From an uncultured Flammeovirgaceae bacterium (GTDB taxonomy: Bacteria > Bacteroidota > Bacteroidia > Cytophagales > Cyclobacteriaceae): 11,655 bases of DNA. Where the stretch lies: NCBI GenBank assembly GCA_946886805.1, contig CAMPJM010000086.1:1-11655 (forward strand). Direction: 5' to 3'. This document shows positions 30 through 9,746 of the stretch, in pieces. Within the stretch, counting starts at the first letter, position 1; each line of letters begins with the position of its first letter. The translations under genes were made by a program, and so were the position numbers. The notes under the pieces were generated by a model. That model made no database searches. It saw only the letters and a program-made list of their open reading frames with translations, and was not told the DNA's origin.

Positions 30-103
30 GGGGGATTAGCTCAGTTGGCTAGAGTGTCCCGAATGCTTTCGGGAGGGTCGTCGGTTCGAATTCGGCATTC
101 AGA
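30..103 (+). pseudogene. tRNA-Ala-like shell 1, anticodon arm replaced by a hairpin
   Basis: The D arm is identical to that of the intact tRNA-Ala at 257-330, and the T arm can still fold using G-U pairs (stem 80-84 with 92-96). In place of the anticodon arm is TCCCGAATGCTTTCGGGA, a 7-bp perfect inverted repeat with a 4-nt TGCT loop, so there is no seven-base anticodon loop. The 3' acceptor strand ATTCAGA pairs only partly with the 5' GGGGGAT. It cannot work as a decoding tRNA, though it could be transcribed. Confidence 0.8.
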
Positions 104-143
104 TAGATATTGCTTTAAGGTTCTTAATTATATTTGCAAAAAA

Positions 144-217
144 GAGGGATTAGCTCCAGTTGGCTAGAGTGTCCCGAATGCTTTCGGGAGGGTCGCCTGT
201 TCGAATTGGCATTCAAG
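144..217 (+). pseudogene. tRNA-Ala-like shell 2, same hairpin in place of the anticodon arm
   Basis: This second shell is more decayed. There is an extra C in the D arm (GCTCCAGTTGG), a G-to-A change in the acceptor strand, and the T-stem is broken (CCTGTTCGAATTGGC). The TCCCGAATGCTTTCGGGA hairpin is nevertheless identical to that of shell 1. The hairpin is thus better kept than the rest of the tRNA body. It is not a functional tRNA. Confidence 0.8.
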
Positions 218-867: not shown

Positions 868-1476
868 TTAAATCTCGATCATCCGGAAAGTCAGATTTAT
901 TCTCTCTCGTTTTTTCAACCTAGTCGGGGGCAAACGATGGAGCCAATTCGTTTGTGTTTTATCCTTCATCACCAACAAACTTCCATGCTCAAGGACCAGT
1001 GAAATTGTTTCTTTTGTTTGTTTATGTTTAAAAGAAAAGTTTCGCTCTGCGCCAAAGCTCAAAGAAGCTATTGCTCCATTCTTTCTCAATGCTTTTTCCG
1101 CATCGCTGTGCCAGGCCATACCTTCATTCCCATTGTGATACAAATTGAGCAGACAAGAATTAAATTTCTCACCTGTTTTTGCCTCCACTAATGTTTTTAG
1201 TTCAAGCAATTCCTTTGTCCATCCCAGAGCTTGCTTGGTGGTATTGGAATAATTATAATCAAATTGACTATCACCATACCAGGCTACTTTCCTCTTGGTT
1301 ATTATGTGCTTACCAAAAATAACCGCCTCATCATTTTTCCAGGCAATAGAATTTAACAGACAATCAAAATAATCATTTGCCTTTGTGGTCGGCAATATTT
1401 TTCCAAAATAATTTACTACCCCATCTTTAGGCAGTAGGTTATTGTTTTCAGCCGTTTCATTGCTAAATAGATCCAT
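868..1476 (-). CDS. alkB: Alpha-ketoglutarate-dependent dioxygenase AlkB
   Basis: A 202-residue Fe(II)/2-oxoglutarate dioxygenase that oxidatively removes methyl groups from 1-methyladenine and 3-methylcytosine in DNA. The metal triad is visible as H123-x-D125 in NLYHNGNEGMAWHSD and H180 in NWLHRLPPT. The 2-oxoglutarate and fold signature R192-x-N194-x-T-x-R198 lies near the C-terminus. Layout and length resemble the ALKBH2/ALKBH3-like bacterial group more than E. coli AlkB. It is the last gene of a minus-strand repair operon, 4 nt after the Ada-type metal-binding gene. The start at 1476 fits that tight spacing. No clear terminator is visible downstream. Confidence 0.93.
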   Translation of the reverse strand: MDLFSNETAENNNLLPKDGVVNYFGKILPTTKANDYFDCLLNSIAWKNDEAVIFGKHIITKRKVAWYGDSQFDYNYSNTTKQALGWTKELLELKTLVEAKTGEKFNSCLLNLYHNGNEGMAWHSDAEKALRKNGAIASLSFGAERNFSFKHKQTKETISLVLEHGSLLVMKDKTQTNWLHRLPPTRLKKRERINLTFRMIEI

Positions 1477-1480
1477 TTCT

Positions 1481-1753
1481 TTAGTTTTTTAAAGTGGTCT
1501 GTGAGGACACAGGATCACGGAGGCGGTGATTTTTATAATCAGCTTTCATACAATGGCCACAGGGTCGGAAACCATTCTCCTTGGCCTCTTGAACTGAATT
1601 AAAGAACACTCTATTTTCCTTTTTCATTCTTTTTCCGGAGGAACACTGTAGTGTACCAAAAATCTTCAACTTGCTATTACCGCCAAGGCAGATAATTTTA
1701 TTCTTAATTTGATTTCTTAAATCCTCGTCAGTTAAATTGCTATGGTATTTCAT
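1481..1753 (-). CDS. Stand-alone Ada-type metal-binding domain protein
   Basis: A 90-residue protein resembling the N-terminal zinc/methylphosphotriester domain of Ada. The stretch KLKIFGTLQC37 followed by ENRVFF and GFRPC65GHC68 aligns residue for residue with E. coli Ada from the EN pair to the C-x2-C pair. In Ada four cysteines (38, 42, 69, 72) hold zinc and Cys38 takes the methyl group. Here only C37, C65 and C68 fall in the domain; a K sits where a C-x3-C pair would put the other ligand, and C22 or H67 might substitute. C37 could match either Cys38 or Cys42, so methyl acceptance is uncertain. Its ATG directly abuts the stop of the preceding gene (no gap), so the genes are likely co-translated. 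The HTH and methyltransferase parts of Ada are on another gene of the operon. Confidence 0.75.
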   Translation of the reverse strand: MKYHSNLTDEDLRNQIKNKIICLGGNSKLKIFGTLQCSSGKRMKKENRVFFNSVQEAKENGFRPCGHCMKADYKNHRLRDPVSSQTTLKN

Positions 1754-2476
1754 CTAACTTATTGCGTCATGAAAAATAATTCCGAGGGTATGTCTTTCTC
1801 CTTTATGGATTTCACTTACCCCATGTTTCATATTGACCCGATAATACCCTTTATTGCTTTTTACGGGTCTGAAATTGGTTGTAAAAACCAACATTTCTCC
1901 TTTTTTAGGCTTCAGAACAATAGCCTTCGATTGTGCTCTTGGTGTTTGCTGTGTTAGTACGAATTCTCCACCGGCATAATCAACATCAGGTTCATTTAAA
2001 AATAATACTACTTGAATCGGGAAAAATATATCGCCATAAAGGTCCTGATGCAGTGTATTGTAGCCACTTTTCCCATATTTCAGGGTTAAAACTGTTGGCT
2101 TTAATTGACCGTTTGCGTGACAAAGCTTCTGTAGCGCTTGAAGAGAGTCGGGAAATACGGTTGCGATTTTAAGCACTTTCATCCAGGAATTTGCGATGGG
2201 AGCAAGTTTAGGATAAATAGTCTCCCTAATTTCCTGTATCAAATCCGGTAGGGGATAGCTATAATATTTGTATTCTCCCAGTCCAAACCGATAACGCTCC
2301 ATAACCACCGTCTTCCGAAAGAATTTACTGTCTCCATATTGCGCCTTCAGCTTTTCGCATTGTTCATTTGTTAGCAAACCCGGGAGAATTGAATAGCCTT
2401 TTGTATGCATTTCTTCAGTTGTTTTTTCGAAATCCATTTGAGCTATTTTCTGCTTTATACTTTCATAATTTGACAT
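1754..2476 (-). CDS. 2OG-Fe(II) oxygenase of the alkylation-repair operon
   Basis: A 240-residue oxygenase of the prolyl-4-hydroxylase-like 2OG-Fe(II) fold. The iron site reads H143-x-D145 in NTLHQDLYGD and H218 in NMKHGVSE, with R228 ten residues on as the expected 2-oxoglutarate-binding residue (GERHTLGIIFHD). It resembles the bacterial group COG3826, from memory. It is clearly distinct from AlkB: there is no R-x-N-x-T-x-R signature. The substrate is unknown. It sits between the AraC/MGMT gene (26 nt upstream) and the Ada-like gene (no gap downstream), so a role in alkylation damage is a reasonable inference from position only. Confidence 0.8.
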   Translation of the reverse strand: MSNYESIKQKIAQMDFEKTTEEMHTKGYSILPGLLTNEQCEKLKAQYGDSKFFRKTVVMERYRFGLGEYKYYSYPLPDLIQEIRETIYPKLAPIANSWMKVLKIATVFPDSLQALQKLCHANGQLKPTVLTLKYGKSGYNTLHQDLYGDIFFPIQVVLFLNEPDVDYAGGEFVLTQQTPRAQSKAIVLKPKKGEMLVFTTNFRPVKSNKGYYRVNMKHGVSEIHKGERHTLGIIFHDAIS

Positions 2477-2502
2477 AACACATTTCCTGATTTAGCATGC
2501 AA

Positions 2503-3351
2503 TTAAACTTCCTGGCTTATTCTAGCTGCTTCCCAACCTATGAGAGATGTTTTCCTTGTAGTCCCCCACATATAGCCTCCCAGTTTACCACTTGATTGGA
2601 TTACCCTATGACAGGGGATCAGAAAAGCAATGGGATTTTTCCCGATGGCAGTACCAACCGCCCTGGATGCTTTACTGCTTCCCAACCTTTGGGCAATTGA
2701 ACCATAAGTTGTAAGCCCGCCCATCGGTATAGTAAGAAGTGTTTCCCAAACCTTCAACTGAAAATCCGTTCCTTTTAGATGTAGCTTTATTTGGGGCAGT
2801 TTACTCCAATCATGGGAAAATATATAAAGAGCATTCTGCTGGATCACATCATGCATCTGTTTAAATTGAGCGTTTGGAAATTGGTTTTGCATCAATGAAA
2901 AGGCATTAGCTTCATCCTCAACGAAGGCCATATAACAAATCCCCTTTGGTGTAGAAGCTACTATTATATTTCCGAAAGGACTTTCTGCAAAGCTATAATT
3001 GATTGAAAGGTTTTTCCCGCCGGTTTTATATTCAGCAGGTGTCATACCTTCAATATTGATAAATAAATCATGAAGCCTTCCTGTTCCTGAAAGCCCAGTT
3101 TCATAGGCGGTCTCAAAAAGTGTGGCCTGGCTGTCTTTAAGCAATTTCTTGGCATGTTGGATACTTGTATATTGCAGGAACTTTTTCGGACTTGTACCTG
3201 CCCATTCGCTAAAAAGGCGATGAAAATGATAGGGGCTTAAATGCACTTTTTGGGCTACTTCATCTAAATTGGGTTGGGCCTTAAAGTTTAACTTTATAAA
3301 ATCTATTGCTTCGGCAATACGCTGGTAATTGATTAATTCCTGATCATTCAT
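2503..3351 (-). CDS. AraC-type regulator fused to O6-methylguanine-DNA methyltransferase (Ada without N-domain)
   Basis: From ATG 3351 the protein has 282 residues. Residues about 12-109 are an AraC/XylS helix-turn-helix domain (VHLSPYHFHRLFSEWAG and the second helix pair before MTPAEY). Residues about 118-277 are a DNA-[protein]-cysteine methyltransferase with P-C247-H-R as active site and GGY-W-G-RK closing the domain. It transfers methyl or alkyl groups from O6-alkylguanine in DNA to Cys247. Compared with E. coli Ada it lacks the N-terminal zinc domain, which occurs as a separate gene two positions downstream. A TTG start at 3375 would overlap the probable -7 box and is rejected. It is the first gene of the operon and may regulate it, but how it senses damage without the phosphotriester domain is not evident. 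Confidence 0.92.
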   Translation of the reverse strand: MNDQELINYQRIAEAIDFIKLNFKAQPNLDEVAQKVHLSPYHFHRLFSEWAGTSPKKFLQYTSIQHAKKLLKDSQATLFETAYETGLSGTGRLHDLFINIEGMTPAEYKTGGKNLSINYSFAESPFGNIIVASTPKGICYMAFVEDEANAFSLMQNQFPNAQFKQMHDVIQQNALYIFSHDWSKLPQIKLHLKGTDFQLKVWETLLTIPMGGLTTYGSIAQRLGSSKASRAVGTAIGKNPIAFLIPCHRVIQSSGKLGGYMWGTTRKTSLIGWEAARISQEV

Positions 3352-3372
3352 AACTTTATCTTTATTGTAAAG

Positions 3373-3403
3373 CAAAAATAAAACCCCTTTGCGTATGGCG
3401 AAA
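3373..3403 (-). promoter_or_regulatory. Promoter of the alkylation-repair operon
   Basis: Read on the minus strand, TATTTTTG (3380 to 3373) matches TAnnTTTG exactly, and TTTC (3403 to 3400) sits 19 nt upstream, close to the -33 TTTG element. The start site would fall near 3366, about 15 nt before ATG 3351. The element lies just after the MepB-family stop codon, so the repair operon can be expressed separately from that gene. Confidence 0.6.
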
Positions 3404-4733: not shown

Positions 4734-4997
4734 CTATTTATATTTATTGACGTTTTGCTTCTTATCCTCAAATTTTCCTCTTGCATCAGGGAGATATTTT
4801 AATAACCAGAGACCCACCAAAAATAGAATAACAGAACCTATAAATGCCGGAATGGCAATCTCTGTGTTCGTCCAAAGCATTGTTTAATGCACTGTAAAGC
4901 AGCCAGATCTGAATACTCAAAATTCCTATTAGCAACATTTAATTCCCAACATGACGATACCGTACTTCTTTTATTTTAGAAGCGACTCTTTGTTCAT
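4734..4997 (-). pseudogene. Decayed second copy of the two-helix membrane protein gene
   Basis: From 4734 to about 4955 this matches the intact gene at 5859-6137, roughly four bases in five by eye. The last reading frame gives GSVILFLVGLWLLKYLPDAR and ends NKYK plus TAG, like the intact protein. A 2-bp loss near 4860 and a 1-bp loss near 4940 break the frame between segments that still read MLLIGILSIQIWLLYSALNN and the C-terminal helix. Upstream of MLGI the match fades; a frame running to ATG 4997 contains an in-frame stop. Differences within the readable parts are mainly synonymous or conservative, so the copy diverged as a working gene before it decayed. It lacks Rieske or other partners on its upstream side. 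Confidence 0.85.
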
Positions 4998-5858: not shown

Positions 5859-6137
5859 CTACTTGTACTTGTTTTGATCCTTTTCTTTCATATCCAGATT
5901 ACTTCGGGCATCAGGAAGATATTTTAGCAGCCACAACCCCACAAGAAACAATAAAACAGAACCTATAAATGCTGGAATGGCAATGTCTCTGTGTTCATCC
6001 AAAGCATTGTTCAGTGCGCTGTACAGCAGCCAGATCTGAATACTTAAAATTCCAATCAATAACATAATAATACCCAACATGAGGGTATTGGTCTTATTTG
6101 GATGAGCCTGGTTCTGAGCATCTCTAAAATCACTCAT
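5859..6137 (-). CDS. Small two-helix membrane protein of the nitrate reductase cluster
   Basis: A 92-residue protein with two clear transmembrane helices, about residues 18-40 and 53-71, joined by a short charged loop (LDEHRD), and hydrophilic ends. I cannot name the family with certainty. It follows the Rieske gene by 5 nt, so co-translation with it is likely, and it may be an accessory or anchor subunit of the same complex. A frameshifted relative lies about 860 bp downstream at 4734-4997, and the intact copy has kept the whole open frame. It has no heme- or metal-binding signature. Confidence 0.8.
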   Translation of the reverse strand: MSDFRDAQNQAHPNKTNTLMLGIIMLLIGILSIQIWLLYSALNNALDEHRDIAIPAFIGSVLLFLVGLWLLKYLPDARSNLDMKEKDQNKYK

Positions 6138-9594: not shown

Positions 9595-9607
9595 AATTTT
9601 TTTTAAA

Positions 9608-9746
9608 ATCTACAAGACGCAATAAATCTACAAGACGCGATAAATCGGTAAATGCGATAAACCGTTGAAAATGCAATAGATCATTAAAACCACGATAAAT
9701 CGTTAGAGACGCGATGAATCATGAGACGCGATGAATCGCGTCTCTA
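9608..9746. repeat. Degenerate 18-nt tandem repeat array ending in a perfect hairpin
   Basis: Seven successive units of 17-19 nt follow the pattern ATC-TN-AGACGCGATAA (first two ATCTACAAGACGCAATAA and ATCTACAAGACGCGATAA, from 9608). At the end closest to the cytochrome b gene, arms GAGACGCGAT (9723-9732) and ATCGCGTCTC (9735-9744) form a perfect 10-bp stem. The cytochrome b stop codon (9744-9746) is part of this element. There are no unique spacers, so it is not CRISPR. It fills nearly the whole 149-nt gap between two genes that should be co-expressed. Similar GAGACGCGA-type repeats are scattered in many Bacteroidota genomes, from memory. Confidence 0.85.

Follow-up and report, generated by a model that had tools for sequence, protein, structure and literature searches.

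SegB, a free-standing homing endonuclease of the T-even phages, is the closest described system. This GIY-YIG enzyme of phage T6 cuts inside tRNA genes (reported cut motif RAWTSGAAC), SegB with its catalytic residues is required for the tandem amplification of tRNA-Tyr plus segB, segB homologs are seen near tRNAs in phages, and the 5' end of the tRNA gene shares microhomology with the 3' end of the nuclease gene (PMC13096335). On reading, the cut motif is the reverse complement of a tRNA T-loop.

Dispersed short palindromes tied to a small nuclease gene are also known from the REP elements, where RAYT is the nuclease linked to the palindromes. A REP study treats GTAG- and CGTC-tagged repeats (PMC3733652), and neither TCCCG nor GIY was returned by a term search of it. 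Among sequence relatives with solved structures, the UPF0213 GIY-YIG proteins and SLX1 have to be considered. SLX1 acts on branched or hairpin DNA and works with a partner protein; we know of no tRNA association or palindrome partner for either UPF0213 or SLX1. Genomic islands at tRNA genes usually consist of an intact tRNA, an insert, and a partial copy of the 3' part of the tRNA.

The DNA analysed here (the window) is a stretch of 11,655 nucleotides from an uncultured Flammeovirgaceae bacterium, and the parts of its tRNA and nuclease array described below lie on the forward strand. Pairwise alignment indicated that a leader and a tRNA sequence are repeated thrice (1-112, 113-227 and 228-345), with the leader CTTTAAGGTTCTTAATTATATTGCAAAAAG being shared. 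The first two tandem units (1-227 taken together) each carry a tRNA-Ala copy, while the third carries an intact tRNA-Ala(GGC) at 257-331 (Rfam, 61.3 bits). This was the sole tRNA called by ARAGORN in the window, and copies 1 and 2 failed as functional tRNAs in this test. Copy 1 (30-100) is without the 3' acceptor end, and it matched RF00005 with 24.3 bits, which is below the gathering score of 29. Copy 2 (144-214) is more decayed, with an additional C in the D arm and a broken T stem, and was absent from the Rfam scan of the window. In both copies the hairpin TCCCGAATGCTTTCGGGA stands exactly where the intact tRNA has its 17-nt anticodon arm, CCTGCATGGCATGCAGG (284-300). This 18-mer folds into a 7-bp stem with a 4-nt loop and occurs exactly twice in the window, at 57-74 (copy 1) and 172-189 (copy 2), as the first-pass annotation had described, and the arm swap is exact. 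Perfect stems of at least 7 bp with a loop of 3-9 nt are present at 12 places in the window, and these include both of the hairpins as well as the intact anticodon arm.

The copies in the window are whole-unit tandem duplicates, and the two hairpins are identical because the units were duplicated in tandem. The identity of the hairpins in the window alone is therefore no evidence of selection, and the earlier argument, which rested on the improbability of decay producing one palindrome on two occasions, has little force here. The real evidence is the recurrence of the hairpin in other genomes, rather than the two equal hairpins in the window. Since the window begins within a unit, the array may extend further upstream. 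The feature also reaches beyond positions 30-217, to which the earlier description had been confined: a GIY-YIG nuclease ORF of 83 aa (348-599) and a third, partial copy (about 582-630) belong to it. Copy 3 consists of a part of the tRNA D arm followed by a decayed hairpin, TCCCCTTCAGGG, and a T-arm remnant (by eye, in comparison to the related loci L002, L003, L004 and L008). An assembly artefact was considered and rejected, since arrays or copies are seen inside near-whole-genome contigs (L115 in G141 C1, of 3,665,746 bases, and L123 in G340 C1, of 3,939,633 bases) and in named isolates (L003, L009).

The GIY-YIG ORF lies downstream of the intact tRNA-Ala, in the same direction, and matches the PF01541 profile (E 7.6e-14, 52.2 bits against a cutoff of 22.6, scanned as ORF 294-599). 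As with SegB, the nuclease gene thus adjoins a tRNA gene. The last codons of the ORF (LLSSAG, then TAG) are, by eye, the D arm of copy 3, with the stop codon falling within its D loop. The relatives P0002, P0003 and P0013 terminate in LISSAG, which is likewise the D arm read in frame. A nuclease end that is read from the D arm also recalls the tRNA 5'/nuclease 3' microhomology of the SegB system.

We observed that the window protein has a Lys at a column where at least 90% of the 22 proteins in the family alignment (A1) have a Glu. The UPF0213 and SLX1 chains also have Glu at this position in the printed alignments, and family members that retain it exist. We take this near-invariant Glu to be the catalytic residue of the nuclease family, and the window nuclease is probably dead. 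With the conserved acidic residue lost and copies 2 and 3 eroded, the window system as a whole is probably a decayed relic. The nearest solved structures to the family profile in the PDB were UPF0213 proteins and SLX1 (1zg2, 1ywl; 7cq2, 4xlg), and SLX1 is named as a structure-specific endonuclease in these matches. This kinship suggests structure-specific cutting by the nuclease family, and the known action of SLX1 on branched or hairpin DNA would fit an action at the bases of the hairpins here.

Relatives of the nuclease at E <= 1e-8 to the A1 profile (built from the 22 proteins) were found in 209 of 345 Bacteroidota genomes, often in tandem. When viral contigs were evaluated with A1 (using one peptide pattern), none of the 104 stretches was a relative of the nuclease, and a phage source was thus not identified. 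The 30 nt spanning the window hairpin had no exact match in the viral contigs, and a PHROGs scan of three proteins gave no family. A search of phages with the window nuclease returned four Listeria phage records at 41% identity. Positions 1-1500 of the window matched 196 plasmid records, the best 20 of which match only 249-364 (the intact tRNA and its flanks).

The window has other features, away from this array. Between two genes, at 9603-9744, are short repeats (of the ACGCGATAAATC type) ending in a 22-nt palindrome, GAGACGCGATGAATCGCGTCTC, and these are perhaps another palindrome family. The small gene at 5859-6137 seems, by eye, to have a decayed second copy at 4740-4940. A run of genes at 868-3375 resembles DNA-alkylation repair on the basis of profile matches, with two 2OG-Fe(II) oxygenases (one of the Oxygenase-NA family), an Ada metal-binding domain protein, and an AraC/O6-methylguanine methyltransferase fusion.

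Twelve loci (L001-L012) were selected from the genome collection solely on a protein match. TCCCG-type hairpins were present in tRNA copies adjoining the gene in nine of these (L001-L006 and L008-L010, near flanks read). The hairpin of L003 ends in CGGGG, and L007 carries a CCCCG variant. L011 (Woesebacteria) had no TCCCG-type hairpin in its near flanks, and its closest tRNA is some 1.8 kb from the nuclease gene; L012 is a contig end where the sequence stops at the gene. The tRNAs called by ARAGORN in L001-L010 were Ala, Met and Asp. In these ten loci (about 100 kb), every called tRNA was no more than about 210 bp from the nuclease gene; L008 and L010 had no call.

We further evaluated a larger set of 50 loci, comprising the 30 best and 20 hand-picked lower ones (one per genome among those 20), of which four (L077, L080, L082 and L083) had already been met through the hairpin pattern or the first protein set. 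An intact tRNA was present within 500 bp of the nuclease in 46 loci, a TCCCG-CGGGA hairpin within 500 bp in 36, and one or the other in 48. The tRNA and the nuclease were on the same strand in all 46, with the tRNA upstream in 40 and downstream in 6. A partial copy of that tRNA (at least 14 nt, at least 90%) was seen within 500 bp of the pair in 44 of 46 (0 of 46 for the shuffled-tRNA control). The parent tRNAs include Ala, Asp, Gly, Val, Pro, Arg, Ser and Asn, and many of the copies in the relatives are without one end (the 5' or 3' half) of the tRNA body. No tRNA was found within 500 bp in 4 of the 50 loci, and no partial copy in 2 of the 46. In 14 of the 50, the TCCCG hairpin was not found within 500 bp, and some of these carry TCCG, TCTCG or CCCGCC stems.

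The layout of the arrays can be written as H-S-H-S-P or P-S-H-S-H. Here P denotes the original hairpin and H the one with the TCCCG stem, and S is the stretch separating consecutive hairpins. Both orders are present, and the nuclease gene, where there is one, lies within S. A tRNA with an intact P usually adjoins the copies, and more than one intact tRNA is seen in L009, L100, L108 and L109. While the window has a single GIY-YIG gene, there are five tandem copies in L076 and three each in L108 and L115, each with an adjoining hairpin. All five nuclease copies of L076 (in genome G303) have the same hairpin 3' of them. The repeat unit is 315 bp in L076 and 358 bp in L108. These are repeats of the same kind as the tandem amplification of the tRNA-plus-nuclease segment by SegB. 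SegB is, however, a phage enzyme and the genes here are in bacterial genomes, the likeness being one of layout. In addition, the spare copies here are partial and have a standard swapped hairpin, for which the part of the SegB report available to us gives no counterpart (PMC13096335).

When the 345 genomes of the phylum were searched with a pattern for this stem in this tRNA position (AGAGYGTCCCGN{2,12}CGGGANGGTC), 16 of them had matches, at 26 places in all (reversed-pattern control, 0). The palindrome is therefore not limited to one genome; confinement to a single genome was the outcome that the first-pass annotation had named as speaking against it. ARAGORN scored three of the 26 places as tRNAs (one in L021, two in L027). 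The L027 copies (G087 C4) have a TCCCG stem with the 7-nt loop CTGCAAG, lie by a tRNA-Ala, and are called as tRNA-Cys; an annotation could mistake copies of this type for functional tRNAs. When the first stem base was A, C or G, the same pattern context was found in none of 40 genomes; the T form was present in 18 of the 40, but those had been included for that match or for the nuclease gene. Of nine nuclease-bearing genomes, only three had the strict anticodon pattern, since it misses swaps outside the anticodon arm and D arms of different sequence. Some of the copies were without a GIY-YIG gene in the stretch examined (L018, L020, L023, L025, L029 and L030, among others).

A dispersed palindrome population was seen with TCCCGAN{2,7}TCGGGA, which occurs 0-111 times per genome (64 genomes). 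The reversed hairpin control was zero in 38 of the 64 and above the true count in five (G002, G014, G022, G026 and G032). The median number of hairpins per genome was 8 with the nuclease and 2.5 without it (20 genomes each, one-sided Mann-Whitney p = 1.2e-4, in a comparison that ignores kinship and genome size). G100 has 26 TCCCGA-TCGGGA hairpins (several at contig ends and possibly counted twice), of which 20 were, by reading, in tRNA copies. Their parents are Ser, Arg(CCT), Arg(ACG), Asn, Val, Met and one Arg-like tRNA, and the other six hairpins are in dispersed repeats (four), in a tRNA terminator (one), and elsewhere (one). In G025, which has 82 hairpins, tRNA copies were, by reading, seen in L066, L067 and L069 out of 15 loci, the remainder being mostly outside such copies. 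The same palindrome in shells of other tRNAs had been proposed earlier as a check, and the hairpin was indeed present in copies of many tRNAs. H thus extends beyond the proposed element, since hairpins of this class also sit in dispersed repeats and in a terminator.

We then considered what the hairpin replaces. Using the flanks X and Y of H, we searched the same locus for X-P-Y without H. This gave 35 distinct replaced segments (P), some from overlapping loci and some being close variants of each other. Sixteen of them were 17 nt long, and 15 of these 16 close with at least 5 pairs, as expected of anticodon arms. Of 15 short P (not all independent), 11 had at least two complementary terminal base pairs, against 1.10 expected for equally long windows taken from the same context, and none of 100,000 simulations reached 11; the other four were without two terminal pairs. 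This terminal pairing of the replaced segments indicates that, in most cases, a hairpin has been swapped for a hairpin, base to base. For the insertion scars suggested in the first-pass annotation, 'insertion' is not quite right, because the hairpin mostly replaces an existing inverted repeat.

The swapped arm varies, and may be the anticodon, T or D arm. A T-arm example of P is CGAGTTCG, in Asp and Gly tRNAs, and further examples are CAACCTTG in Gly and GAAGTTTC in Arg(CCT). The same TCCCG/CGGGA stem, with a variable tip, is seen over parent stems of unrelated sequence. Swaps were also seen outside tRNAs. In L057, H replaces CAAC-spacer-GTTG between repeats that are CRISPR-like (a label given by eye only), and in L065 it replaces a 19-nt palindrome, the other-strand match being a 31-nt P without closing pairs. 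H was more stable than P in 26 of 27 hand-paired cases (DNA folding parameters); this carries little weight, since H was selected for its GC stem. In the same 27 cases the tips of H were slightly closer to the loop of their own tRNA than to those of others (permutation p = 0.0025), a hint that only the stem may have been rewritten.

In L057 (G003 C2:1-1500), a hairpin-bearing unit of 132 bp is repeated at about 563-930, with hairpins at 563, 695 and 827. By eye, the tRNA copies of L026, L027, L029 and L031 have, in addition to the anticodon-arm TCCCG hairpin, other and longer palindromes that follow GGTTC in the T loop.

The reading that we favour, with moderate confidence, is that the copies belong to a chromosomal GIY-YIG element, which undergoes SegB-like amplification around Bacteroidota tRNA genes and leaves hairpin-swapped copies behind. 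The nuclease would cut tRNA genes at or near hairpins, and recombinational repair of the cuts would lead to tandem segmental duplications, as in phage SegB. Selection would keep one working tRNA copy, and in the spare copies the hairpin would be exchanged for H, which may abolish the cut site or may be the preferred partner sequence of the nuclease. As the SegB layout matches the layout here, nuclease-driven duplication appears to be the likeliest source of the spare copies. What counts against this model is that the escape of the working copy needs explaining if the enzyme cuts the tRNA hairpin. We also put forward, more tentatively, a broader proposal. A structure-specific GIY-YIG nuclease would cut hairpins at their base, and the standard TCCCG hairpin would replace them one-for-one in tRNA genes, CRISPR-like arrays and dispersed repeats; duplicated tRNA genes would be the usual refuge, because the working copy is kept. 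This would be a new class of mobile DNA. The mobile-element branch of the first-pass annotation has gained strong circumstantial support (multiple genomes, many tRNAs, and a GIY-YIG nuclease gene alongside), and its interpretation as a whole is partly supported.

The TCCCG hairpin might instead be an independent, REP-like mobile palindrome, moved by another enzyme and replacing hairpins wherever redundancy allows. The GIY-YIG gene would then be a separate, tRNA-associated homing element whose only part is to supply the spare copies. Hairpins of this class for which no GIY-YIG gene was observed do occur in the dispersed repeats L047, L051, L055 and L056, between the CRISPR-like repeats of L057, outside tRNA copies in G025, and in gene-less copies. 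We nevertheless consider this doubtful, since the hairpin lies within 500 bp in 36 of 50 nuclease loci and hairpin counts track the presence of the nuclease. The likeness to REP/RAYT is itself partial, as the enzyme here is a GIY-YIG protein and the palindrome takes the place of inverted repeats that the tRNA copies already had. Among the 9 of the 32 window ORFs that were scanned, no RAYT (Y1) transposase was seen.

The window units, which are plain tandem duplicates, would also be accounted for if a tRNA gene had simply been duplicated in tandem and had then decayed, the hairpin having come from mutations in the anticodon stem and no element being involved. In a weaker form of this explanation the stem is rewritten and the loop partly kept, and the slight resemblance of the tips to their own tRNA's loop in the 27 hand-paired cases (p = 0.0025) agrees with it. 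However, one TCCCG/CGGGA stem is found over unrelated parent stems, in T arms, D arms and a CRISPR-like array, none of 40 genomes had another first stem base in the same context, and the copies are accompanied by a nuclease gene. Strained by this recurrence, the explanation is unlikely.

A slightly poorer case can be made for the copies being attachment-site scars of integrative elements that use tRNA genes and carry the GIY-YIG gene as cargo. Both 3'-type and 5'-type layouts do occur, and the intact tRNA, the insert and the partial tRNA repeat resemble those of the genomic islands. But the insert here is very small (units of 315 bp in L076 and 358 bp in L108 have little room beyond the GIY-YIG gene), the hairpin in the partial copy is foreign, which would not be so in a faithful attachment repeat, and no integrase was found among the 9 of 32 window ORFs scanned. 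That the copies yield a functional small RNA, such as the decoy for tRNA-recognising proteins suggested in the first-pass annotation, is very improbable: they could be transcribed, as the leader DNA was duplicated along with them in the window, but many copies are without a 5' or 3' half, the swapped arm varies, and the sequence outside the hairpin decays.

Together, the recurrence of tRNA, nuclease and hairpin, as judged from sequence comparison, points to an undescribed kind of selfish DNA living on tRNA genes. In the literature, which was searched by title and the start of the abstract, no TCCCG hairpins in tRNA copies appeared among the matches listed. The window is one case of a widespread tRNA-GIY-YIG-hairpin association, for which no description was found among those matches. 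If our preferred reading of a SegB-like element is right, it would account for pseudo-tRNA calls and for GIY-YIG genes with ends that derive from tRNA sequence, and it would offer a directly testable nuclease-substrate pair. The SegB principle, in which a GIY-YIG nuclease drives the amplification of a tRNA locus, would extend from phages to bacterial chromosomes, with a new step added, the replacement of one hairpin by another. A large part of the Bacteroidota (209 of 345 genomes, with the tRNA link counted at 50 loci) would then carry a selfish tRNA-gene system.
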